Shown piece by piece: positions 54,153 through 63,386 of a stretch of 64,000 nt of DNA. The translations under genes and the position numbers were made by a program. This DNA comes from Streptomyces californicus (GTDB lineage: Bacteria; Actinomycetota; Actinomycetes; Streptomycetales; Streptomycetaceae): the NCBI RefSeq assembly GCF_000717645.1, contig NZ_JNZZ01000009.1, positions 124,001 to 188,000 of the forward strand, read 5' to 3'. Below the pieces are notes generated by a model. The model had not been told where the DNA came from. It did not search any database and saw only the letters and a program-made list of their open reading frames with translations. Within the stretch, counting starts at the first letter, position 1; the number at the start of each line of letters is the position of its first letter.

Positions 54153-56126
54153 TCAGGCCGCCAGCAGTTCCGCCTCCATCGTGGCGCGCAGCCGCAGGGT
54201 GGAGACCAGCCGCTGGAACGCCTCCGACCAGTAGCCGCCCGCCCCCGGTGAGGCCCCCTCCTGTTCGTCCTGTGCTGCCGTCAGGACCTCCAGCCGGTCG
54301 GCCTCGGCCGGGTCCAGGCAGCGTTCCGCGAGACCCATCACCCCGCTGAAGCTCCACGGGTAGCTGCCGCCGTCCCGCGCGATGTCGAGCGCGTCGACCA
54401 CGGCCCGCCCGAGCGGCCCGGCCCACGGGACCGTGCAGACCCCGAGCAGCTGGAACGCCTCCGAGAGGCCGTGCGCGGCGATGAACCCGGCGACCCAGGA
54501 CGCGCGTTCGCCCTCCTCCAGGACGGAGAGGAGCTTCGAGCGCTCGGCGATCGAGGCCGTCCCGGGGCCGCTCGCCGGAGGGGCCGACGGGCGCCCGAGC
54601 AGAGCCCGCGACCAATGCGGGTTCCGCTGCCGCACCGCCGCCCGGCACCACGCCGCGTGCAGCTCACCGGCCCATTCGTCGGCCACGGGCAGGGCCACGA
54701 CCTCCTCGGCGGCCCGCCCGCCGAACCGCTCCTCCCACACGTCGAGCGGCGTCGCCTCCACCAACTGGCCCAGCCACCAGGACCGTTCACCGCGACCGGC
54801 GGGCGGGACCGCGGCGACCCCGTCGCGCTGCATGCCCGCGTCGCATTCGTGCGGGGCCTCCACGGCGATGCCCGGGGAGACGCCCGTACGGTCCAGGTGA
54901 ACGCAGGAAAGGGCGCGGGCGGCCATCCGTCCGGCGAGCGCCGACGCGGGCAGGGCGGAGAGCAGTTCGGCGGCGGTGGCGCGCACGTTGCGGCTGCGGT
55001 CGGACAGGGCCTGCTCCAGGAAGGGCTCGTCGGCGTTCCCGAGGCCCGACCGCAGGGAGTCCAGGAACATCAGCCGGTCCTCGGCCCGTTCGGCCGCCCA
55101 GGTGGTGGCGAGCAGGGCCGTCCCGGCGGGCGGGTCCTGTGCCCGTACGGCGTCGAGCAGCGCGATCCGCTCGGCGAACAGCCCCTCCTCCCACAGCCGC
55201 GCCACCGCGTCCGGGTCCGTGACGTCGGGGCGGAGGGTGCCGCCCGCCGAACCGCGCAGCGCGAACCTCCAGTCGGGGTTGAGGCCGGCCAGCCACAGCC
55301 CGCGCGGTCCGGCGAACGCGAGCGCCTGCGGCCGCAGGTCCGTCCGGGCGCGGGCGGCGTCCAGCAGGGGCGGCAGCAGCGAGGCCGGGGCCCGGTAGCC
55401 CATCCGGTTGGCGGTGGCCAGCCACTGCGGGATCAGCTCCGTGAGGTCGGGTGCGGCACCGCGCCGGCCGCCGGCCGAGGGCGCGGCCCGGTCGGCGAGC
55501 AGGTGGGCGAGCCGGAGCCGGGCGGCTTCGGGGAGCGCGGGGCGCGGGTCCGGCGCGGCCGGCGCGGGCCGGGCCTGCGGCACGGCGGGCCGTAGCCCTG
55601 CGCGCTGCCGCACGGTGTGCAGCGCGGCGGCGTCCAGCAGGGCCGCCGGGACGTCGGCCGGCGCGGGTCCGCCGCGCGGGGCGGGAGGGCGGCGGTCGGT
55701 GCCGAGGAGCGCCGAGGTGACCAGCTCCTCCCAGGACAGCCCGGCGACAGCGTCGAAGCCGGAGGCGGAGGGGGAGGCGGAGGCGGAGCCAGGGCCGGAG
55801 GCGGATCCGGAGACGGAGGGGGAGCCCGGGGCGGAGGCGGATCCGGGACCGGGGCCGCGGTCGGGCGCGGGGCCCGGGCCGGAATGCGCGGATCCGGAGC
55901 CGGATCCGGATCCGGATCCGGATCCGGAGCCGGTGGCGATGCTGGTGCCGGTGGCGGTGACATTCGTGAAGGGGGCGGCCGTCGTGGGAGCGGTCGTCAT
56001 AAGGGCGGTGCGTGCGGGAACGGCCGTCGCGCGGCCGGCCGTTGGGGGGCCCGCCATTGCTGAGCCGGTCGTCGTGGGGCCGGACGTGGTGGGTGTGGTC
56101 GTTGCGAGGGCGGTCGTGCGAGGCAT
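54153..56126 (-). CDS. DUF5691-like helical protein, partner of the SWIM protein
   Basis: This 657-residue cytoplasmic protein has a Thr/Ala/Pro-rich N-terminus (1-70) and a (GSGS)n and Ser/Ala-rich linker to about residue 125, encoded by repeats of GGATCC around 55890-55930. A long alpha-helical region follows (WEELVTSALLGTDRRPP ... LLSALPASALAGRMAARAL ... EEVVALPVADEWAGELHAAW), reminiscent of HEAT/ARM-type repeats. DUF5691 is my recollection of the family name. ATG 56126 follows GGAGGGG, 37 bp after the SWIM gene stop; the two share an operon. The family function is unknown. Confidence 0.78.
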   Translation of the reverse strand: MPRTTALATTTPTTSGPTTTGSAMAGPPTAGRATAVPARTALMTTAPTTAAPFTNVTATGTSIATGSGSGSGSGSGSGSAHSGPGPAPDRGPGPGSASAPGSPSVSGSASGPGSASASPSASGFDAVAGLSWEELVTSALLGTDRRPPAPRGGPAPADVPAALLDAAALHTVRQRAGLRPAVPQARPAPAAPDPRPALPEAARLRLAHLLADRAAPSAGGRRGAAPDLTELIPQWLATANRMGYRAPASLLPPLLDAARARTDLRPQALAFAGPRGLWLAGLNPDWRFALRGSAGGTLRPDVTDPDAVARLWEEGLFAERIALLDAVRAQDPPAGTALLATTWAAERAEDRLMFLDSLRSGLGNADEPFLEQALSDRSRNVRATAAELLSALPASALAGRMAARALSCVHLDRTGVSPGIAVEAPHECDAGMQRDGVAAVPPAGRGERSWWLGQLVEATPLDVWEERFGGRAAEEVVALPVADEWAGELHAAWCRAAVRQRNPHWSRALLGRPSAPPASGPGTASIAERSKLLSVLEEGERASWVAGFIAAHGLSEAFQLLGVCTVPWAGPLGRAVVDALDIARDGGSYPWSFSGVMGLAERCLDPAEADRLEVLTAAQDEQEGASPGAGGYWSEAFQRLVSTLRLRATMEAELLAA

Positions 56127-56163
56127 CTTTCCCCTCCCGTGGCAGGGACGCGCGGATGTCGGA

Positions 56164-57564
56164 TCAGACCAGGGGGACGACGGACCGGGCGGCGGCGGGC
56201 GCGGCCTCCCCTTCCTCCGGATCGCCCGGGTCCCAGGCGGCGTACGGATCGAAGCCGCGGTGGCCGATCTCCCCGAACACCGTGACCGGCCCCCCGCCGG
56301 ACAGCGCGACGAGCTTCCACAGCCCCGGCCGGGAGAGCGCGGCCGGGGCGATCGGCACCGCGGAGGCGGACCGGGCGTCGGCCAACTGCCAGCCGTCCCC
56401 GGCCGGCACGGGTACGACGTCGCGCAGGACGACCGGCCAGGCGTCCAGCCACGGATCGTCCCGCAGGGCGTTCCCGTAGACCGCGGGCGCCTCCGCCGCG
56501 GCGATCCCCGGCGGGGGGCCGGCCGGGGGCACCGCTCCGAACTGCTCGCCCAACTCCGCGCGGAGCTGTCCGCCGCCCGGATACGGCGTCAGCTCGGCGT
56601 CGATCGCCGTGCCCACCGGCAGCGCCTGCGCCGGGGGCCGGCCCGGCGCGCCGAACGAGAGCAGCAGCGCGGTGCGGTGCGAATCCCGCCCGTACAGCCA
56701 GATCCGCCGCGCGACGATCCTCCCGTCCGGGGTGTCGTACTGCGCGAGCACCGACCAGTGGTCCCGGACCGGCGGACCCTCGGCGGACGCGGGCAGCCCC
56801 ACTCTGGTCCGTACGGTCGCGGCCAGCGGCTCCGGCAGCCGCTCCCGGCCGAGCCACGCCGTGTCCAGCAGGTGGAGCAGACCGCACTCCTCCAGCAGCC
56901 GCACCGGCCCGCCGGGCCCGGACCCGGTGATCGCCCCCAACTCCCGCACCCGGGCGGCGAGACCGGGGGCCTGGGCGTCGACCATGCGGGCGGCGGTCTC
57001 CTCCCATAGGCCGTAGCCCGCGCGTTCGGTCGTGGCGAGCCCGCCGCGCAGCAGATCGGACAGCCGCTGCTCCAGCTCCCGGACCCCGCCCGTCACCCGC
57101 TCGGCGCGGCGCTCCGCCCGCTTCCTGGCGGCGTCCGTGCTCGTCGGCTCCCGCGCGGCCCCGCTCCCCGGTGAGCCGTCCGCGCGTCGGCGCCGGCCCT
57201 CGATCCACGCCGCCGCCCAGTCGGCCGGATCCGACCGCCGGAACGCGGCCTCGTCCGCCGCCCGCAGCAGCAACAGGCCCAGGGCGTGCTTGCAGGGGAA
57301 CTTCCGGCTGGGGCAGGAGCAGTGGTACGCCGGGCCCGTGAGATCGACCACCGTCCGGTACGGCGCGCTTCCGCTCCCCTCGCACCGGCCCCACACCGCT
57401 CCCGCGCCGTCCCCGCCCGTGCCGGACCACGGCCCGGCCGTGCCGAGTCTGCCGCCCGCCGTCCGTGATGCCGCGTCAGGAGCCAGTGCCAGCACCTGCT
57501 CCACCGACCAGCGCGCCACCGGCGCGGCGGCGGGCGACGTCTCTCCCCCGTGAGATAGCTGCAT
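56164..57564 (-). CDS. SWIM zinc-finger domain protein (YehQ-like)
   Basis: This 466-residue protein has a SWIM motif near residues 80-100: YHCSCPSRKFPCKHALGLLLL, with three Cys and one His as zinc ligands. The long C-terminal region is mostly alpha/beta (LRGGLATTERAGYGLWEETAARMVDAQAPGLA; YDTPDGRIVARRIWLYGRDSHRTALLLSFG) and has no other known domain. SWIM fingers bind DNA or proteins. It is upstream of, and co-directional with, the DUF5691-like gene and divergent from the lipoprotein and the MoxR operon. The same association occurs in E. coli yehLMPQ (SWIM is YehQ). Confidence 0.88.
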   Translation of the reverse strand: MQLSHGGETSPAAAPVARWSVEQVLALAPDAASRTAGGRLGTAGPWSGTGGDGAGAVWGRCEGSGSAPYRTVVDLTGPAYHCSCPSRKFPCKHALGLLLLRAADEAAFRRSDPADWAAAWIEGRRRRADGSPGSGAAREPTSTDAARKRAERRAERVTGGVRELEQRLSDLLRGGLATTERAGYGLWEETAARMVDAQAPGLAARVRELGAITGSGPGGPVRLLEECGLLHLLDTAWLGRERLPEPLAATVRTRVGLPASAEGPPVRDHWSVLAQYDTPDGRIVARRIWLYGRDSHRTALLLSFGAPGRPPAQALPVGTAIDAELTPYPGGGQLRAELGEQFGAVPPAGPPPGIAAAEAPAVYGNALRDDPWLDAWPVVLRDVVPVPAGDGWQLADARSASAVPIAPAALSRPGLWKLVALSGGGPVTVFGEIGHRGFDPYAAWDPGDPEEGEAAPAAARSVVPLV

Positions 57565-57716
57565 GTCTCCGACGGTAGGGGTCGGCACTGACAATCGCTC
57601 CGACCTGCGAAAGCGCCCGTTCGGTATCAATTTGACTTTGCCTGCTCTTTGCGTTTCTCTGCGGTCTCCGCGTACGGAACGGATCCGTGCCCGGACCGAT
57701 CCAGGGGGGATCCCAG
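57565..57716. promoter_or_regulatory. divergent promoter region of the SWIM and lipoprotein genes
   Basis: An AT-rich patch (57627-57660) contains TTGACT (57632-57637), a good -35 for the plus-strand lipoprotein gene, although the -10 is weak. The minus-strand promoter is not clear. Confidence 0.4.
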
Positions 57717-58142
57717 ATGAACCGCACCACCCGTGTCACCCGCGCCCTCGCGGTCTCCGTCCTCGTGCTCGGACTCGGCGCCTGCTCGGCCGAGTCGGTG
57801 GACCAGGCGGTCAACAAGGCGGTCGACGAGGCCGTGGACGAGACCTACGAGGTCACGTACGAGGTCACCGGCACGAGCGTCGACGAGATCACGTACCACG
57901 GAGGCGGCGGCAAGGCCATGGAGCCCGAGCTGGAGACCGTCGACGCGCCCACTCTGCCGTGGAAGAAGACCGTGAAGCTGCGCGGCATCATGCCGCCCGC
58001 CGTCATGCCGCTGGCCTTGGACGCGGGCGGCTCCGACGTCACCTGCACCATCACCTACAAGGGCAAGGTGATCAAGGAGGCGAAGGGTGAGGGCATGCTC
58101 TCGGCGGGCGGCTGCGTCGCCGTGTCGCCGATCGCGGGCTGA
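57717..58142 (+). CDS. small MmpS-like lipoprotein
   Basis: This 141-residue protein has a lipoprotein signal peptide (ALAVSVLVLGLGACSAE; lipobox LGAC with Cys at 23). A Val/Glu/Asp-rich helix follows, then a compact beta domain (TYEVTYEVTGTSVDEITYHGG ... SDVTCTITYKGKVIKEAKGEG). The beta domain resembles MmpS-type accessory proteins, although no MmpL transporter gene is nearby. ATG 57717 follows AGGGGGGA. It lies inside the divergent SWIM/MoxR gene set but is closed off by its own terminator. Confidence 0.8.
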   Translation: MNRTTRVTRALAVSVLVLGLGACSAESVDQAVNKAVDEAVDETYEVTYEVTGTSVDEITYHGGGGKAMEPELETVDAPTLPWKKTVKLRGIMPPAVMPLALDAGGSDVTCTITYKGKVIKEAKGEGMLSAGGCVAVSPIAG

Positions 58143-58174
58143 CGCCCCCGGGCGGTAACGCCTCCCGCGCGGAC

Positions 58175-58201
58175 GGGCTCTGACCTGCGGTCAGGGCCCG
58201 T
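58175..58201 (+). terminator. terminator after the lipoprotein gene
   Basis: A 12-bp stem (58175-58186 with 58190-58201, one G-U pair) with a 3-nt loop. It separates the lipoprotein unit from the MoxR operon that starts at 58262. TTGTCA at 58202-58207 could serve as the -35 for that operon. Confidence 0.75.
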
Positions 58202-58261
58202 TGTCAGTGCCATGGTGCACGGTGGGAACCACATCGGGTCGACCGATCTGGAGGGGGAACC

Positions 58262-59467
58262 ATGACCGTGCCCGCAACCACTCCGACCACCCCGGCCACC
58301 CCGGGCGCCGCGACCGCTCCGGCCGCCGCGAACACCCCGCCCGCGCCGGGTGCCGCGACCGGGGCGGCCCGTGCGCCGGGGGCGGGGGCGGAGGCGCTGC
58401 GCCCGCACGCCGAGGACGCGTTCGCGGACGAGCTCGCGGCGCTCGCGGCCGCCGACGACCGCCCCCGCCCCGCCCGTTGGCGGCTCTCGCCGTGGGCCGT
58501 CGCCACCTATCTGCAGGGCGGGGTGCTGCCGGACGGGACGGTGATCACGCCCAAGTACGTGGGCCCGCGCCGTCTGGTCGAGGTGGCCGTGACCACGCTC
58601 GCCACCGACCGGGCGCTGCTCCTGCTCGGCGTCCCGGGCACGGCCAAGACCTGGGTGTCCGAACACCTCGCGGCCGCCGTGAGCGGTGACTCGACCCTGC
58701 TCGTGCAGGGCACCGCCGGGACGCCCGAGGAGGCCGTCCGCTACGGGTGGAACTACGCCCAGCTCCTCGCCCACGGCCCCAGCCGCGACGCCCTGGTGCC
58801 CAGTCCGCTGATGCGGGCCATGTCCGAGGGCATGACGGCCCGGGTCGAGGAGCTGACCCGCATCCCCGCCGACGTGCAGGACGCGCTCATCACGATCCTG
58901 TCCGAGAAGACCCTCCCGGTTCCCGAGCTGGGCCAGGAGGTGCAGGCCGTCCGGGGGTTCAACCTCATCGCCACGGCCAACGACCGGGACCGGGGCGTCA
59001 ACGAGCTGTCCAGCGCACTGCGCCGCCGGTTCAACACCGTCGTGCTGCCGCTGCCCGCCACCGCGCAGGACGAGGTCGACATCGTGTCCCGGCGCGTCGA
59101 CCAGATAGGCCGGTCGCTCGACCTCCCGGTCGCCCAGGAGGGGCCGGCCGAGATCCGCCGCGTGGTGACGGTCTTCCGCGAACTGCGCGAGGGGATGACC
59201 ACCGACGGGCGCACCAAGCTCAAGTCCCCCTCGGGCACGCTCTCCACCGCCGAGGCGATCTCGGTCGTCACCAACGGCCTGGCGCTCGCCGCCCACTTCG
59301 GCGACGGCGTGCTGCGCCCCGACGACGTCGCGGCCGGCATCCTCGGCGCGGTCGTCCGGGACCCCGGGACCGACCGGGTGGCCTGGCAGGAGTACCTGGA
59401 GACCGTGGTCCGCGAGCGGGACGGCTGGAAGGACTTCTACCGCGCCTGCCGCGAGGTGTCCGCATGA
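58262..59467 (+). CDS. MoxR-family AAA ATPase (YehL-like)
   Basis: This 401-residue AAA+ ATPase has an Ala/Pro/Thr-rich N-terminus (residues 1-60). Walker A is LLGVPGTAKTWVSEHLA (near 120). The Walker B region reads TARVEELTRIPADVQDALITILSEK, with Glu-Glu where Asp-Glu is usual. Sensor 1 is FNLIATANDRDRG and the Arg finger region SSALRRRFNTVVLPLP. MoxR ATPases act as chaperones for VWA-domain partners, and this gene is translationally coupled to the DUF5682 gene (ATGA overlap at 59464) with the VWA gene next. E. coli YehL is the apparent counterpart. ATG 58262 has GGAGGGGG upstream. Confidence 0.93.
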   Translation: MTVPATTPTTPATPGAATAPAAANTPPAPGAATGAARAPGAGAEALRPHAEDAFADELAALAAADDRPRPARWRLSPWAVATYLQGGVLPDGTVITPKYVGPRRLVEVAVTTLATDRALLLLGVPGTAKTWVSEHLAAAVSGDSTLLVQGTAGTPEEAVRYGWNYAQLLAHGPSRDALVPSPLMRAMSEGMTARVEELTRIPADVQDALITILSEKTLPVPELGQEVQAVRGFNLIATANDRDRGVNELSSALRRRFNTVVLPLPATAQDEVDIVSRRVDQIGRSLDLPVAQEGPAEIRRVVTVFRELREGMTTDGRTKLKSPSGTLSTAEAISVVTNGLALAAHFGDGVLRPDDVAAGILGAVVRDPGTDRVAWQEYLETVVRERDGWKDFYRACREVSA

Positions 59468-61998
59468 CGTCCCCCGCGCCCGCGCGGCCCGCCGCCTCCG
59501 CACGGCCCACGGTGCCCGCCGCGTCCGCACGGCCCGCCGCCTCCGCGCCGCCCGCCGGGCCGTGGCTGCTGGGGGTGCGGCACCACGGGCCCGGATCGGC
59601 GCGGGCGGTGCTCGCCGCGCTCGCGGCCGCCCGCCCGGCCGCCGTCCTCATCGAGGGACCGCCCGAGGGCGACGCGTTGCTGCCGCTGGCCGCCGATCCG
59701 GCGATGCGCCCGCCGGTCGCCCTCCTCGCGCACGCCGTGGACGACCCGGGCCGGGCCTCCTTCTGGCCGATGGCCGCGTTCTCGCCGGAGTGGGTGGCCC
59801 TCCGCTGGGCCCTCGACCACGGCGTCCCGGTCCGCTTCATCGACCTGCCCGCCGCGCACTCGCTCGCGATCGAGGCCCCCGCGCCCGGGGCGGGGGAGGC
59901 CCCCCGCGCCGAGGAGGGGGAGCCGTCGGGGGAGCGGGCAGAGGACGAGGTCACACCCGCCGTGGACCCGATCCGGGTGCTTGCCGAGACCGCCGGGTAC
60001 GACGACCCCGAGCGCTGGTGGGAGGACGTCGTCGAACACCGCTCCCCGGGCGGCGGGACCGGGACGGGCGGCACGACCGGGACGGACAGCGGCACCGGGA
60101 CAGGCGACGGGTCCGGTGCGACCGGGGCAGCCGGCGGGGACGGTGGGACCGGCGCGGGCGACGAGTACGACCCGGGGGCCGCGCTCGCCCCGTTCGCCGC
60201 GCTGGCGGAGGCCATGGGCGCGCTCCGCGAGGCGTACGGCGACGGCGACCGGCCCCGGGACGCGGTGCGCGAGGCGTACATGCGGATTCAGCTGCGCACG
60301 GTGCGCAAGGAGTTCGGGGACGCCGTCGCCGTGGTCTGCGGGGCCTGGCACGTGCCCGCCCTCGCCGCGCGGACCACCCTCGCCGCCGACCGCGCCCTGC
60401 TCAAGGGGCTCCCGAAGGTCAAGGCGGAGCTGACCTGGGTGCCGTGGACCCACCGCCGCCTCGCCCGGCACAGCGGTTACGGCGCCGGGATCGACGCCCC
60501 CGGCTGGTACGGGCACCTCTTCGACGTCCCCGACCGGCCGATCGAGCGCTGGATGACCAAGGTCGCCGGGCTGCTCCGCGCCGAGGACCGGTCCGTCTCC
60601 ACCGCCCATGTCATCGAGGCGGTCCGGCTCGCGGAGACCCTCGCCGCCCTCCGGGGCCGCCCGCTGGCCGGTCTGGGCGAGACGACCGACGCCGTACGGG
60701 CCGTCATGTGCGAGGGGTCCGACGTCCCGCTCGCCCTCGTCCAGGACCGGCTGATCGTCGGCGAGAGCCTCGGCGAGGTGCCGGACTCCGCCCCGGCCGT
60801 CCCGCTGCAACGGGACCTGACCCGCACCCAGCGGACCCTGAGACTCAAGCCCGAGGCGGCGGAACGCGGGCTCGGCCTCGACCTGCGCAAGGACACCGAC
60901 GCCGCCCGCAGCCGCCTCCTGCACCGGCTGCGCCTCCTCGACGTGCGCTGGGGGGAGCCGGTCGAGGGGCGCAGCGGCACCGGCACCTTCCGGGAGAGCT
61001 GGCGGCTGAGCTGGCAGCCGGAGCTGTCCGTCCGGGTCGCGGAGGCGGGCATGTGGGGCACCACGGTCCTCACCGCCGCCACGGCGAAGGCCGAGTCCCT
61101 GGCCCGGGAGGCGGCGGCGCTCGCCGGCATCACCGCCCTCGCCGAGCGCTGTCTCCTGGCCGGCCTGCCCGACGCCCTGCCCGCGGTGATGAGGGCCCTC
61201 GCCGACCGGGCCGCGGTCGACGCGGACGTCGGCCACCTCGCGGACGCGCTGCCCGCCCTGGCCCGCGCCCTGCGGTACGGGGACGTGCGCTCCACGGACA
61301 CGGCTGCGCTCGCCGAGGTCGCCGCCGGACTCGCCGAGCGGATCTGCGTCGGCCTCCCGCCCGCCTGCACCGGCCTCGACGCGGACGGGGCCGAGGCGCT
61401 GCGCCGCCAGGTGGAGGCCGTGCACGGCGCGATCGGGCTGCTGGACTCCGGCCCGGCCCGCGCCGAAGGGCTCCGGGACCGCTGGGACGCCGTGCTGCAC
61501 AAGCTGGCGGCCCGGGACACGGTCGCCGGGGTCATCCGGGGCCGGGCCGCCCGGCTGCTCCTGGACGAGGGGCGGCTGGCGGAGGACGAGGCGGCCCGGC
61601 TGATGGGCCTGGCCCTCTCGCCCGGCACCCCGCCCGCCGACGCCGCCGCCTGGATCGAGGGGTTCGCCGGCGGCGCGTCGGGCGGCGGCATGCTGCTGGT
61701 CCACGACGAACGGCTGCTCACCCTCGTCGACGCCTGGCTGGCCGGTATCCCCGCCGACCGGTTCACGGACGTGCTGCCGCTGCTGCGCCGCACGTTCTCC
61801 GCGTACGAGCCTGCCGTACGGCGCACCCTGGGCGAGCTGGTCCGGCGCGGGCCCGCCGCCGGGGCCGCGCGTGGCGACGCCGGCCGCTCGGTCGGCGGCT
61901 TCGGGCCCGGCCTCGACCGGGGCAGGGCGGACGCGGTGGAGCCGGTGCTGCGCCTGCTGCTCGGCCGCCCGCCCGAGCCCGCGGGGGCGGCCGGATGA
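59464..61998 (+). CDS. DUF5682 family protein (YehM-like)
   Basis: This 844-residue cytoplasmic protein has an N-terminal domain with GVRHHGPGSARAVLAAL (near residue 35), VLIEGPPEGDALL, PVRFIDLPAAHSLAIE and, after a Gly/Thr-rich linker (about 195-240), REAYMRIQLRTV and VVCGAWHVPAL. This set of G-x-x-H, E and second G-x-x-H motifs resembles the TraB/EreA/ChaN-like hydrolase superfamily. The C-terminal 450 residues are alpha-helical, with RTQRTLRLKPEAAERGLGLDLR and repeated helical units. The start overlaps the MoxR stop and the stop overlaps the VWA start, indicating a complex. No function is established for DUF5682. Confidence 0.9.
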   Translation: MTSPAPARPAASARPTVPAASARPAASAPPAGPWLLGVRHHGPGSARAVLAALAAARPAAVLIEGPPEGDALLPLAADPAMRPPVALLAHAVDDPGRASFWPMAAFSPEWVALRWALDHGVPVRFIDLPAAHSLAIEAPAPGAGEAPRAEEGEPSGERAEDEVTPAVDPIRVLAETAGYDDPERWWEDVVEHRSPGGGTGTGGTTGTDSGTGTGDGSGATGAAGGDGGTGAGDEYDPGAALAPFAALAEAMGALREAYGDGDRPRDAVREAYMRIQLRTVRKEFGDAVAVVCGAWHVPALAARTTLAADRALLKGLPKVKAELTWVPWTHRRLARHSGYGAGIDAPGWYGHLFDVPDRPIERWMTKVAGLLRAEDRSVSTAHVIEAVRLAETLAALRGRPLAGLGETTDAVRAVMCEGSDVPLALVQDRLIVGESLGEVPDSAPAVPLQRDLTRTQRTLRLKPEAAERGLGLDLRKDTDAARSRLLHRLRLLDVRWGEPVEGRSGTGTFRESWRLSWQPELSVRVAEAGMWGTTVLTAATAKAESLAREAAALAGITALAERCLLAGLPDALPAVMRALADRAAVDADVGHLADALPALARALRYGDVRSTDTAALAEVAAGLAERICVGLPPACTGLDADGAEALRRQVEAVHGAIGLLDSGPARAEGLRDRWDAVLHKLAARDTVAGVIRGRAARLLLDEGRLAEDEAARLMGLALSPGTPPADAAAWIEGFAGGASGGGMLLVHDERLLTLVDAWLAGIPADRFTDVLPLLRRTFSAYEPAVRRTLGELVRRGPAAGAARGDAGRSVGGFGPGLDRGRADAVEPVLRLLLGRPPEPAGAAG

Positions 61999-63386
61999 CG
62001 ACGGACACGGGGGCGCACCCGGCCACGACCGACCCGACGGGGGAGACGATGGACCACCCGACGACCACGAACCAGCCGATGGCCACCAACCACCCGACGG
62101 CCACGAGCCACCCGACCACCGCGAACCACCCGATCACCGCACCGGAGGCCCCCGCCCCCGCCCATGCCACCGCGCCCCCGCCCACCCCGGGCGTGCCCGA
62201 CGACGAGCGGCTGCGGCGGTGGCGGATGGTGCTCGGAGCCGACAGCACCGAAGGCACGGGCTGCACCCCCACCGGCCAGGACGCGGCGATGGACGGTGCG
62301 CTGACCGCGCTCTACGGCGGGGACAGCGGCGGCAGAAGGCCCGGTGGCCGGGGTTCCGGCGGACGGGCGGCGGGGCTCGGCGCGTCGGCGCCCGCCGTCG
62401 CCCGCTGGCTCGGGGACATCCGGACGTACTTCCCCGCCTCCGTGGTCCAGGTCATGCAGCGCGACGCGATCGACCGGCTCGGCCTCTCCGCCCTGCTCCT
62501 GGAGCCGGAGATGCTGGAGGCGGTCGAACCGGACGTCCACCTCGTCGGCACCCTGCTCTCGCTCGGCAAGGCGATGCCCGAGACGACCAAGGAGACCGCG
62601 CGCGCCGTCGTCCGCAAGGTCGTCGCGGACCTGGAGAAGCGGCTGGAGAGCCGTACCAGGGCCACCCTGTCCGGGGCCCTCGACCGCTCCGCGCGGACCA
62701 GCCGGCCGCGACACCACGACATCGACTGGGACCGCACCGTCCGGGCCAACCTCAAGCACTACCTCACCGTCCCCGGCCGGGACGGCGGGGAGCCCACGGG
62801 CACGATCGTGCCGGAACGCCTCATCGGCCACGGCCGCGCCGCCCGGTCCGCGAAGAAGGAGGTCGTCCTCTGCGTCGACCAGTCCGGCTCGATGGCCGCG
62901 TCCGTGGTCTACGCCTCGGTCTTCGGCGCGGTGCTCGCCTCCCTGCGCACCCTCTCCACCCGGCTCGTCGTCTTCGACACGGCGGTCGTCGACCTCACGG
63001 ACCAGCTCGCCGACCCGGTCGACGTCCTGTTCGGCACCCAGCTCGGCGGCGGCACCGACATCAACCGCGCGCTCGCCTACTGCCAGTCCCGGATCACCCG
63101 CCCGGCCGACACCGTCGTCGTCCTCATCAGCGATCTCTACGAGGGAGGCATCCGCGACGAGATGCTGAAGCGGGTCGCCGCGATGAAGGCGGCCGGAGTG
63201 GAGTTCGTGACGCTGCTGGCCCTGTCGGACGAGGGCGCGCCCGCGTACGACCGCGACCACGCGGCGGCGCTCGGCGCACTCGGCGCGCCCGCCTTCGCCT
63301 GTACGCCGGACCTCTTCCCGGACGTCATGGCCGCCGCGATCGAGAAGCGTCCGCTGCCCGTGCCCGACCCGGAGCCCCGGCCCTGA
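61995..63386 (+). CDS. VWA domain protein (CoxE/YehP-like)
   Basis: This 463-residue protein has an N-terminal Thr/Asn/His-rich repeat (residues 15-60: NHPTAT/SHPTTA units), a helical middle region (WLGDIRTYFPASVVQVMQRDAIDRLGL), then IDWDRTVRANLKHYL. The C-terminal VWA domain (about 285-445) has the complete MIDAS: DQSGS (metal-binding Asp and Ser), the Thr in LGGGTDINRALAYC and Asp in LISDLYEGG. It begins with an ATGA overlap with the DUF5682 gene. VWA proteins of this type bind a target through the metal site while the MoxR ATPase remodels it. Confidence 0.93.
   Translation: MTTDTGAHPATTDPTGETMDHPTTTNQPMATNHPTATSHPTTANHPITAPEAPAPAHATAPPPTPGVPDDERLRRWRMVLGADSTEGTGCTPTGQDAAMDGALTALYGGDSGGRRPGGRGSGGRAAGLGASAPAVARWLGDIRTYFPASVVQVMQRDAIDRLGLSALLLEPEMLEAVEPDVHLVGTLLSLGKAMPETTKETARAVVRKVVADLEKRLESRTRATLSGALDRSARTSRPRHHDIDWDRTVRANLKHYLTVPGRDGGEPTGTIVPERLIGHGRAARSAKKEVVLCVDQSGSMAASVVYASVFGAVLASLRTLSTRLVVFDTAVVDLTDQLADPVDVLFGTQLGGGTDINRALAYCQSRITRPADTVVVLISDLYEGGIRDEMLKRVAAMKAAGVEFVTLLALSDEGAPAYDRDHAAALGALGAPAFACTPDLFPDVMAAAIEKRPLPVPDPEPRP

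Follow-up and report, generated by a model that had tools for sequence, protein, structure and literature searches.

MoxR-type AAA+ ATPases beside VWA proteins are a known kind of bacterial machine, described for the pairs RavA-ViaA, NorQ-NorD and CoxD-CoxE, and a third component is present in the MoxR-vWA ternary conflict systems (PMC7159879, PMC10910872). In mycobacteria, DNA-damage genes are activated by PafBC through the RecA-NDp motif (PMC6789036, PMC11804915), the consensus of which is printed as tTGTCRgtg–8 nt–TannnT (PMC5656591). Here, a five-gene MoxR–DUF5682–VWA locus was analysed in a stretch of 64,000 nucleotides from Streptomyces californicus (the window), where a SWIM-DUF5691 operon and a MoxR-DUF5682-VWA operon are arranged divergently. 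The RecA-NDp DNA-damage motif at both divergent promoters is the new element of this analysis. Given this switch sequence of genes such as recA, the locus suggests an ATP-driven protein-processing machine used upon DNA damage. The combined statement is that DNA damage induces a MoxR/VWA machine and that this machine works together with a TIKI-like hydrolase; induction, hydrolase activity and complex formation are inferred in it, and its probability is put at about one half.

All genes named in an earlier note on this DNA were present and rightly placed. The reverse strand carries the DUF5691 gene (54153..56126, 657 aa; PF18944, 580 bits) and the SWIM zinc-finger gene (56164..57564, 466 aa; PF04434, 26.4 bits against a cut-off of 19.6), separated by 37 nt and without overlap. 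A long low-complexity N-terminus precedes the DUF5691 domain, with a weak HEAT match (15.7 bits) below cut-off, and the SWIM protein has a CxC...CxH motif at residues 82-93. The forward strand carries the genes for the MoxR-type AAA+ ATPase (58262..59467; AAA_5, 129 bits), DUF5682 (59464..61998, 844 aa; PF18934, 965 bits) and a CoxE-like VWA protein (61995..63386, 463 aa; VWA_CoxE, PF05762, 207 bits). The ATGA overlaps described for this operon were both read in the sequence (MoxR/DUF5682 at 59464-59467, DUF5682/VWA at 61995-61998). In the family scan of the MoxR protein, AAA_5 was above cut-off and bpMoxR and AAA_3 were both below; its motifs are GVPGTAKT (Walker A), EE at the Walker B position, ATAND (sensor-1) and RRRF (arginine finger), and EE in place of DE was found in 7/7 MoxR sequences compared. 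The MIDAS residues of the VWA protein are DQSGS, GGGT and SD; DxSxS and GGG[TN] were found in 6/6 sequences compared, and the third motif was matched by pattern in 4/6. The closest DUF5682 homologues were from Streptomyces sp. AFD10 (96 % identity) and S. californicus (94 %).

RecA-NDp motifs at the divergent promoters

The most widely shared words of the SWIM–MoxR gap were found to belong to one motif, facing each way, with coding starts, ribosome-binding sites and the -10 part as the remainder. The SWIM-DUF5691 operon is headed by the full RecA-NDp (PafBC) consensus, TTGTCAGTG-8-TACCGT (57572..57594, reverse strand), in which the -10 ends 7 nt ahead of the SWIM ATG, the same as at recA. The MoxR operon is headed by a RecA-NDp-like motif, TTGTCAGTG-8-CACGGT (58201..58223, forward strand), with the core kept and the -10 starting CA and not TA. 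From 80 Streptomycetaceae loci fetched, 73 were used for counting; the 7 excluded either lacked sight of one of the genes or had a gap outside 100-1000 bases. The full consensus was present on the SWIM side in 65/73; on the MoxR side the core was present in 71/73 and the full motif in none, the twelve most frequent -10 words (70 sites) being CAnnnT without exception and thus outside TAnnnT. Flanks of the same loci (1.496 Mb) contained 16 cores and 0 full sites.

Across the window genome, 18 full sites were found, compared with 0 for the reversed pattern, and twelve further Streptomyces genomes gave 273 and 5, respectively. The first gene downstream of each full site was picked by script and its family assigned by Pfam. 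RecA, UvrB, RuvC, uracil-DNA glycosylase (UDG), O6-methylguanine methyltransferase (MGMT) and a DEAD helicase were obtained. Full sites also precede two of the three DUF5682 modules of this genome, at the window SWIM gene and at the SWIM frame heading the type C module (see below), which gave no Pfam hit and was recognised on inspection and with its relative's profile. Other genes were those for a glyoxalase, an MDMPI/SCP protein, an AAA protein, a transporter and three proteins without Pfam hit. Because full sites head recA, uvrB, ruvC and other repair genes, the motif is read as the damage motif of this genome, judged by the company of genes. Two WYL genes about 1 kb apart (C12:6508 and C12:7472) lie about 2.5 kb from a Pup-ligase gene and are the putative pafB/pafC, as this position is the one expected for pafBC.

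In S. coelicolor, SCO6735 is reported to have a RecA-NDp promoter and to be UV-inducible (PMC5087735, PMC9411070). That the mycobacterial motif was not found conserved in S. venezuelae in an initial search (PMC9380542) weighs against a damage link in Streptomyces, which is nevertheless considered highly likely. The same paper leaves open whether Streptomyces has a PafBC response, and the position of the motif before recA, uvrB and ruvC bears on this question. A general promoter element, uninformative on DNA damage, would account for the roughly 10 of the 18 sites that precede genes without a plain repair role, for the MoxR-side -10 being off consensus and for the full motif being absent outside the family (0/18 loci scanned of lineage A, that of the window; best match with one mismatch). 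Against this, full sites are rare (18 in the window genome and 273 in the twelve others) and here head recA, uvrB and ruvC, and a gene with this promoter is reported to respond to UV in S. coelicolor; a general element is thus held to be very unlikely. The motifs were missed in the earlier note; of the wider range given there (quality control, conflict or signalling), they leave a stress programme.

The LexA box and the Deinococcus RDRM are other damage boxes. Upstream of SWIM in 18 other loci, only imperfect matches to LexA and RDRM boxes were found, and no match to an E. coli LexA consensus was found ahead of yehI or yehL with up to 6 mismatches allowed.

At 10/18 full sites of the window genome a start codon is located 6-9 nt past the -10 box, and many such transcripts may therefore be leaderless. 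Three genes starting 7-8 nt after a full site, one with a sub-threshold SWIM match (L142, contig C15) and two look-alikes of the leucine-rich-repeat kind (L140, C11; L141, C15; one of the two proteins was scanned and gave leucine-rich repeats), are possible new DNA-damage genes. A gene that appeared macrodomain-like by eye (L133) gave no Pfam hit and was therefore not counted as a repair gene.

The five-gene unit and its parallel lineages

The order DUF5691(-) SWIM(-) MoxR(+) DUF5682(+) VWA(+) was found in 61/61 full-length Streptomycetaceae loci, the other 19 of the 80 being shorter than 21,900 bases. A six-gene module had been proposed, including a small lipoprotein-like gene in the divergent gap (57717..58142, forward strand; no Pfam family above cut-off). 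Because this gene is present in only 5/74 loci showing both SWIM and MoxR, it was rejected as a local insertion, and the conserved unit is one of five genes. The gene starting downstream of VWA is sucC, judged by eye.

In 296 Actinomycetota genomes, DUF5691 exceeded its cut-off in 18, and each of these 18 belongs to the 21 genomes that have DUF5682 (Fisher p 4.7e-26). A plasmid collection contained 16 records with DUF5682, of which 11 were fetched; ten of these carry a co-directional SWIM–DUF5691–MoxR–DUF5682–VWA cluster (Deinococcus, two Hymenobacter, Methylobacterium, Methylosinus, three Rhizobium, Nonomuraea and Nocardia), and the eleventh, from Fusobacterium, gave no DUF5691 match. SWIM, MoxR, DUF5682 and VWA were co-directional in 9/9 other actinobacterial loci, in 4 of which DUF5691 was missed by a purpose-built profile and found by the Pfam model, between SWIM and MoxR. 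The five families thus occur in one cluster in Deinococcota, Bacteroidota, Alphaproteobacteria (including Rhizobiales) and other Actinobacteria, and co-occurrence beyond close Streptomyces relatives, a test set beforehand, was borne out. Among the loci examined, the split into two divergent halves was seen in Streptomycetaceae only. Two natural fusions were found, SWIM with DUF5691 as one gene in Hymenobacter HDW8, and DUF5682 with VWA in another Streptomyces lineage (type B).

No paper naming DUF5682 or DUF5691 was found by literature search (most subscription papers and all supplements were outside reach), and nothing relevant was found by a search combining MoxR, DNA damage, SWIM, mitomycin and Streptomyces. 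The module is real, conserved and, as far as these searches go, without described function.

Some of the plasmid loci appear damaged. On the Hymenobacter radiodurans plasmid (L126, 4184-11272), the DUF5682 annotation is broken into three pieces and SWIM/DUF5691 is spread over two overlapping frames; a near-identical Hymenobacter locus (L122) has single frames, and the H. radiodurans copy looks decayed or carries sequencing errors. On the Methylosinus OB3b plasmid (L124, 11214-12334), VWA has no annotation; its matches fall into three separate frames amid intact neighbours and insertion sequences, and the gene looks broken. A small extra gene of unknown kind lies between MoxR and DUF5682 in Deinococcus (L121, 8756-8992) and in Hymenobacter (L122, 8362-8973).

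Several kinds of MoxR–DUF5682–VWA system, designated A (that of the window), B, C and D, occur in Streptomyces genomes. Type B consists of a DUF4132-domain protein, a 1660-residue protein, MoxR and fused DUF5682-VWA (the first two genes were checked in one locus, L178), type C of SWIM–VWA–MoxR–DUF5682-like, and type D of WGR-DUF4132–MoxR–DUF5682–VWA–YehQ-like, the kind of E. coli yehI-Q. For the MoxR tree, 49 rows were picked by hand from the loci at hand, and long branches were warned of by the program. A, B and C each formed a single clade (98/93, 100/100 and 100/99), and Streptomyces D formed one clade with E. coli YehL (100/100); three rows labelled D beforehand (Fusobacterium, a phage-collection contig and L038) fell elsewhere. 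The SWIM–DUF5691–MoxR–DUF5682–VWA system is, by this tree, one among several deep lineages.

The full RecA-NDp motif is shared by the parallel lineages although their MoxR genes are deeply separate. It heads type C in 10/12 Streptomyces loci (one other has the core only and one nothing; a thirteenth, from genome G161, was left out of the count) and in 1/2 loci outside Streptomyces, and type D in 4/4 Streptomyces loci. In type B it was found about 6 kb before MoxR in 5/8 Streptomyces loci, 8 having been examined of about 22 scoring type-B-like, and was not found in a ninth locus from another family. Lineage A outside Streptomycetaceae was without the full motif in the loci scanned. Different lineages have thus probably acquired this promoter independently, in the Streptomyces line or close to it.

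By hmmscan, no Pfam hit was obtained for the DUF5682-like protein of type C in the window genome, yet it matched PF18934 at E 2.5e-27 in the genome profile search. The type C SWIM gene of this genome (L033, contig C19, 13188-15082) is in two overlapping frames, compared with a single frame in L034. A 14 kb record, MT835988.1 ('Bacteriophage sp.', unverified; L128), carries a MoxR-DUF5682-VWA set related to the Fusobacterium system and may be bacterial DNA.

This distribution also bears on whether the locus belongs to the MoxR-vWA ternary conflict systems, in an anti-phage or abortive role. DUF5682 would then be the effector, and a damage promoter would be used because the system is tripped by phage infection or self-damage. 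Such ternary systems exist, and the module is patchy outside Streptomyces (21/296 Actinomycetota genomes) and found on large plasmids. However, some DUF5682 is present in 58/61 Streptomyces genomes, near-universally and with constant gene order, no swapped effector was seen in lineage A, and the promoter is shared with recA, uvrB and ruvC. A known defence system was rejected, as PADLOC gave no convincing match (best E 0.014), and a conflict role is considered improbable.

The DUF5682 fold and the proposed mechanism

In the structural model, DUF5682 consists of an N-terminal alpha/beta domain followed by helical repeats. Because Foldseek and VIA-align matches of the full-length model fell on the helical repeats of the C-terminal half, the N-domain was folded and searched alone, and EreC and TIKI-family structures were then among the top VIA-align rows; the top viral match was a TraB-family protein. 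Residues H40, H41, E64, D127, R269, E270 and H296 of this domain are invariant in 11/11 diverse sequences. The feature of TraB/TIKI/EreA proteins, a His-Glu pair, a second His and a nearby basic residue, is found in H40/H41, E64, R269 and H296, and the His-Glu...Arg...His set is placed at strand ends in the predicted model. The complete 2His/2Glu set, a family feature described for RRSP (PMC6254334), was not found, the first-Glu position (two before His41) being Arg39; the Arg-to-His distance is 27 residues in DUF5682 and 29 in RRSP (PMC6254334).

By sequence, no convincing solved relatives were found for DUF5682, nor were any found for a TraB profile. Alignment by hhalign to a narrow, YbaP-based TraB profile gave a probability of 1.5-2 %, which is not significant, with the GxxH motif as best local match. 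A strict regular expression removed nine sequences from the first hhalign input; for the second, a looser one requiring HH, Glu and GxxH was used, and conservation at these positions (59/59) is thus partly by construction. TraB proper was found in 1/119 Actinomycetota genomes. Overall, there is moderate support for a predicted resemblance of the N-domain to the TraB/TIKI/EreA hydrolase fold, and DUF5682 is rather probably a TIKI-like hydrolase.

Upon DNA damage, both divergent operons would be switched on by PafBC via the RecA-NDp promoters, where the motif is seen. The MoxR ring and its VWA partner would act on DUF5682 or pass it a protein, as suggested by the known MoxR/VWA pairs, the gene overlap and the natural DUF5682-VWA fusion. 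DUF5682 would be the effector, with a TraB/TIKI/EreA-like hydrolase domain containing the His-Glu-Arg-His site and then a helical-repeat scaffold, and SWIM and DUF5691, fused in Hymenobacter, would be a sub-complex that recognises DNA or a protein bound to DNA. The likely outcome would be that, during DNA damage, proteins are remodelled or proteolysed at the expense of ATP; that the type D partner protein carries WGR and DUF4132 domains was counted in favour. The earlier proposal of a MoxR/VWA machine around an enzyme-like DUF5682 protein is supported, and the interpretation given there was partly supported overall.

MoxR/VWA could alternatively be a maturation factor only, which opens DUF5682 for metal entry or frees its active site, much as NorQD acts on NO reductase, with DUF5682 as a client acting alone, still within the DNA-damage programme. 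NorQD is reported to drive metal insertion (PMC13036017), the window VWA is CoxE-like, and the conserved His residues of DUF5682 could bind metal. The DUF5682-VWA fusion and the obligate SWIM and DUF5691 partners would, however, speak more for a standing complex than for a transient chaperone, and maturation alone is considered unlikely, if worth keeping in view.

Proteins trapped on damaged DNA are cleared by machines that combine an ATPase with a protease, such as Cdc48/p97 with Wss1/SPRTN. As a speculative and distinctly improbable extension of the damage-inducible machine, DUF5682 systems might be the bacterial counterpart of such machines, in which MoxR/VWA would pull a DNA-bound protein, SWIM and HEAT-like or WGR partners would find the lesion and TIKI-like DUF5682 would cut. 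The parallel Streptomyces versions under the DNA-damage promoter would then each deal with a lesion of another kind, with E. coli YehI-Q as an orphan relative. With the damage-inducible machine as the reading, a widespread family without described function and with a relative in E. coli gains an experimental entry (regulator, inducer and candidate active site), and if it is true, an ATP-driven protein machine is added to the bacterial DNA-damage response.

Comparison with known systems

With the MoxR-vWA ternary conflict systems, in which VMAP and iSTAND are described (PMC7159879), the locus shares MoxR, vWA and a third component; it differs in that the third component is DUF5682 and in the sub-threshold bpMoxR match. 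No VMAP, iSTAND or other described third component was found by Pfam or PADLOC among the six window proteins, and that paper contains none of the terms DUF5682, DUF5691, SWIM and YehL. With the MoxR/VWA pairs it shares a MoxR-type AAA+ ATPase beside a CoxE-like VWA protein, with intact motifs, but the window pair is tied to DUF5682, SWIM, DUF5691 and DNA-damage promoters and has EE instead of DE in Walker B.

DUF5682 resembles the TraB/TIKI/EreA/ChaN superfamily in the invariant His-Glu...Arg...His set and, as model comparison suggests, may share its parallel-sheet fold; it is distinguished by the lack of a significant sequence match, Arg for the first Glu of 2His/2Glu, the long helical-repeat C-terminus and the MoxR/VWA operon. 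The PafBC regulon is resembled in the motif at both operons and at recA, uvrB and ruvC of the same genome; the MoxR-VWA-DUF5682 module is not named as a member in the accessible parts of the literature on this regulon. MoxR1 and MoxR2 were reported as lowered in a pafBC mutant (PMC5656591).

For E. coli yehI-(yehK)-yehL-yehM-yehP-yehQ, no description of function was found in the literature searched. The statement that yehLMPQ has the same parts holds for MoxR (YehL, 39 %), DUF5682 (YehM, 24 %, E 7e-35) and VWA (YehP, 36 %), which are homologous and in the same order, beside a SWIM protein. It does not extend to YehQ, in which two SWIM motifs are present and for which BLAST against the window SWIM gave nothing significant (E 2.4), nor to DUF5691, in place of which the DUF4132 protein YehI is found, and YehL belongs to a MoxR clade separate from that of the window. 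By these comparisons the window module is a sister of yehLMPQ and not a member, whereas the Streptomyces type D system is a member.

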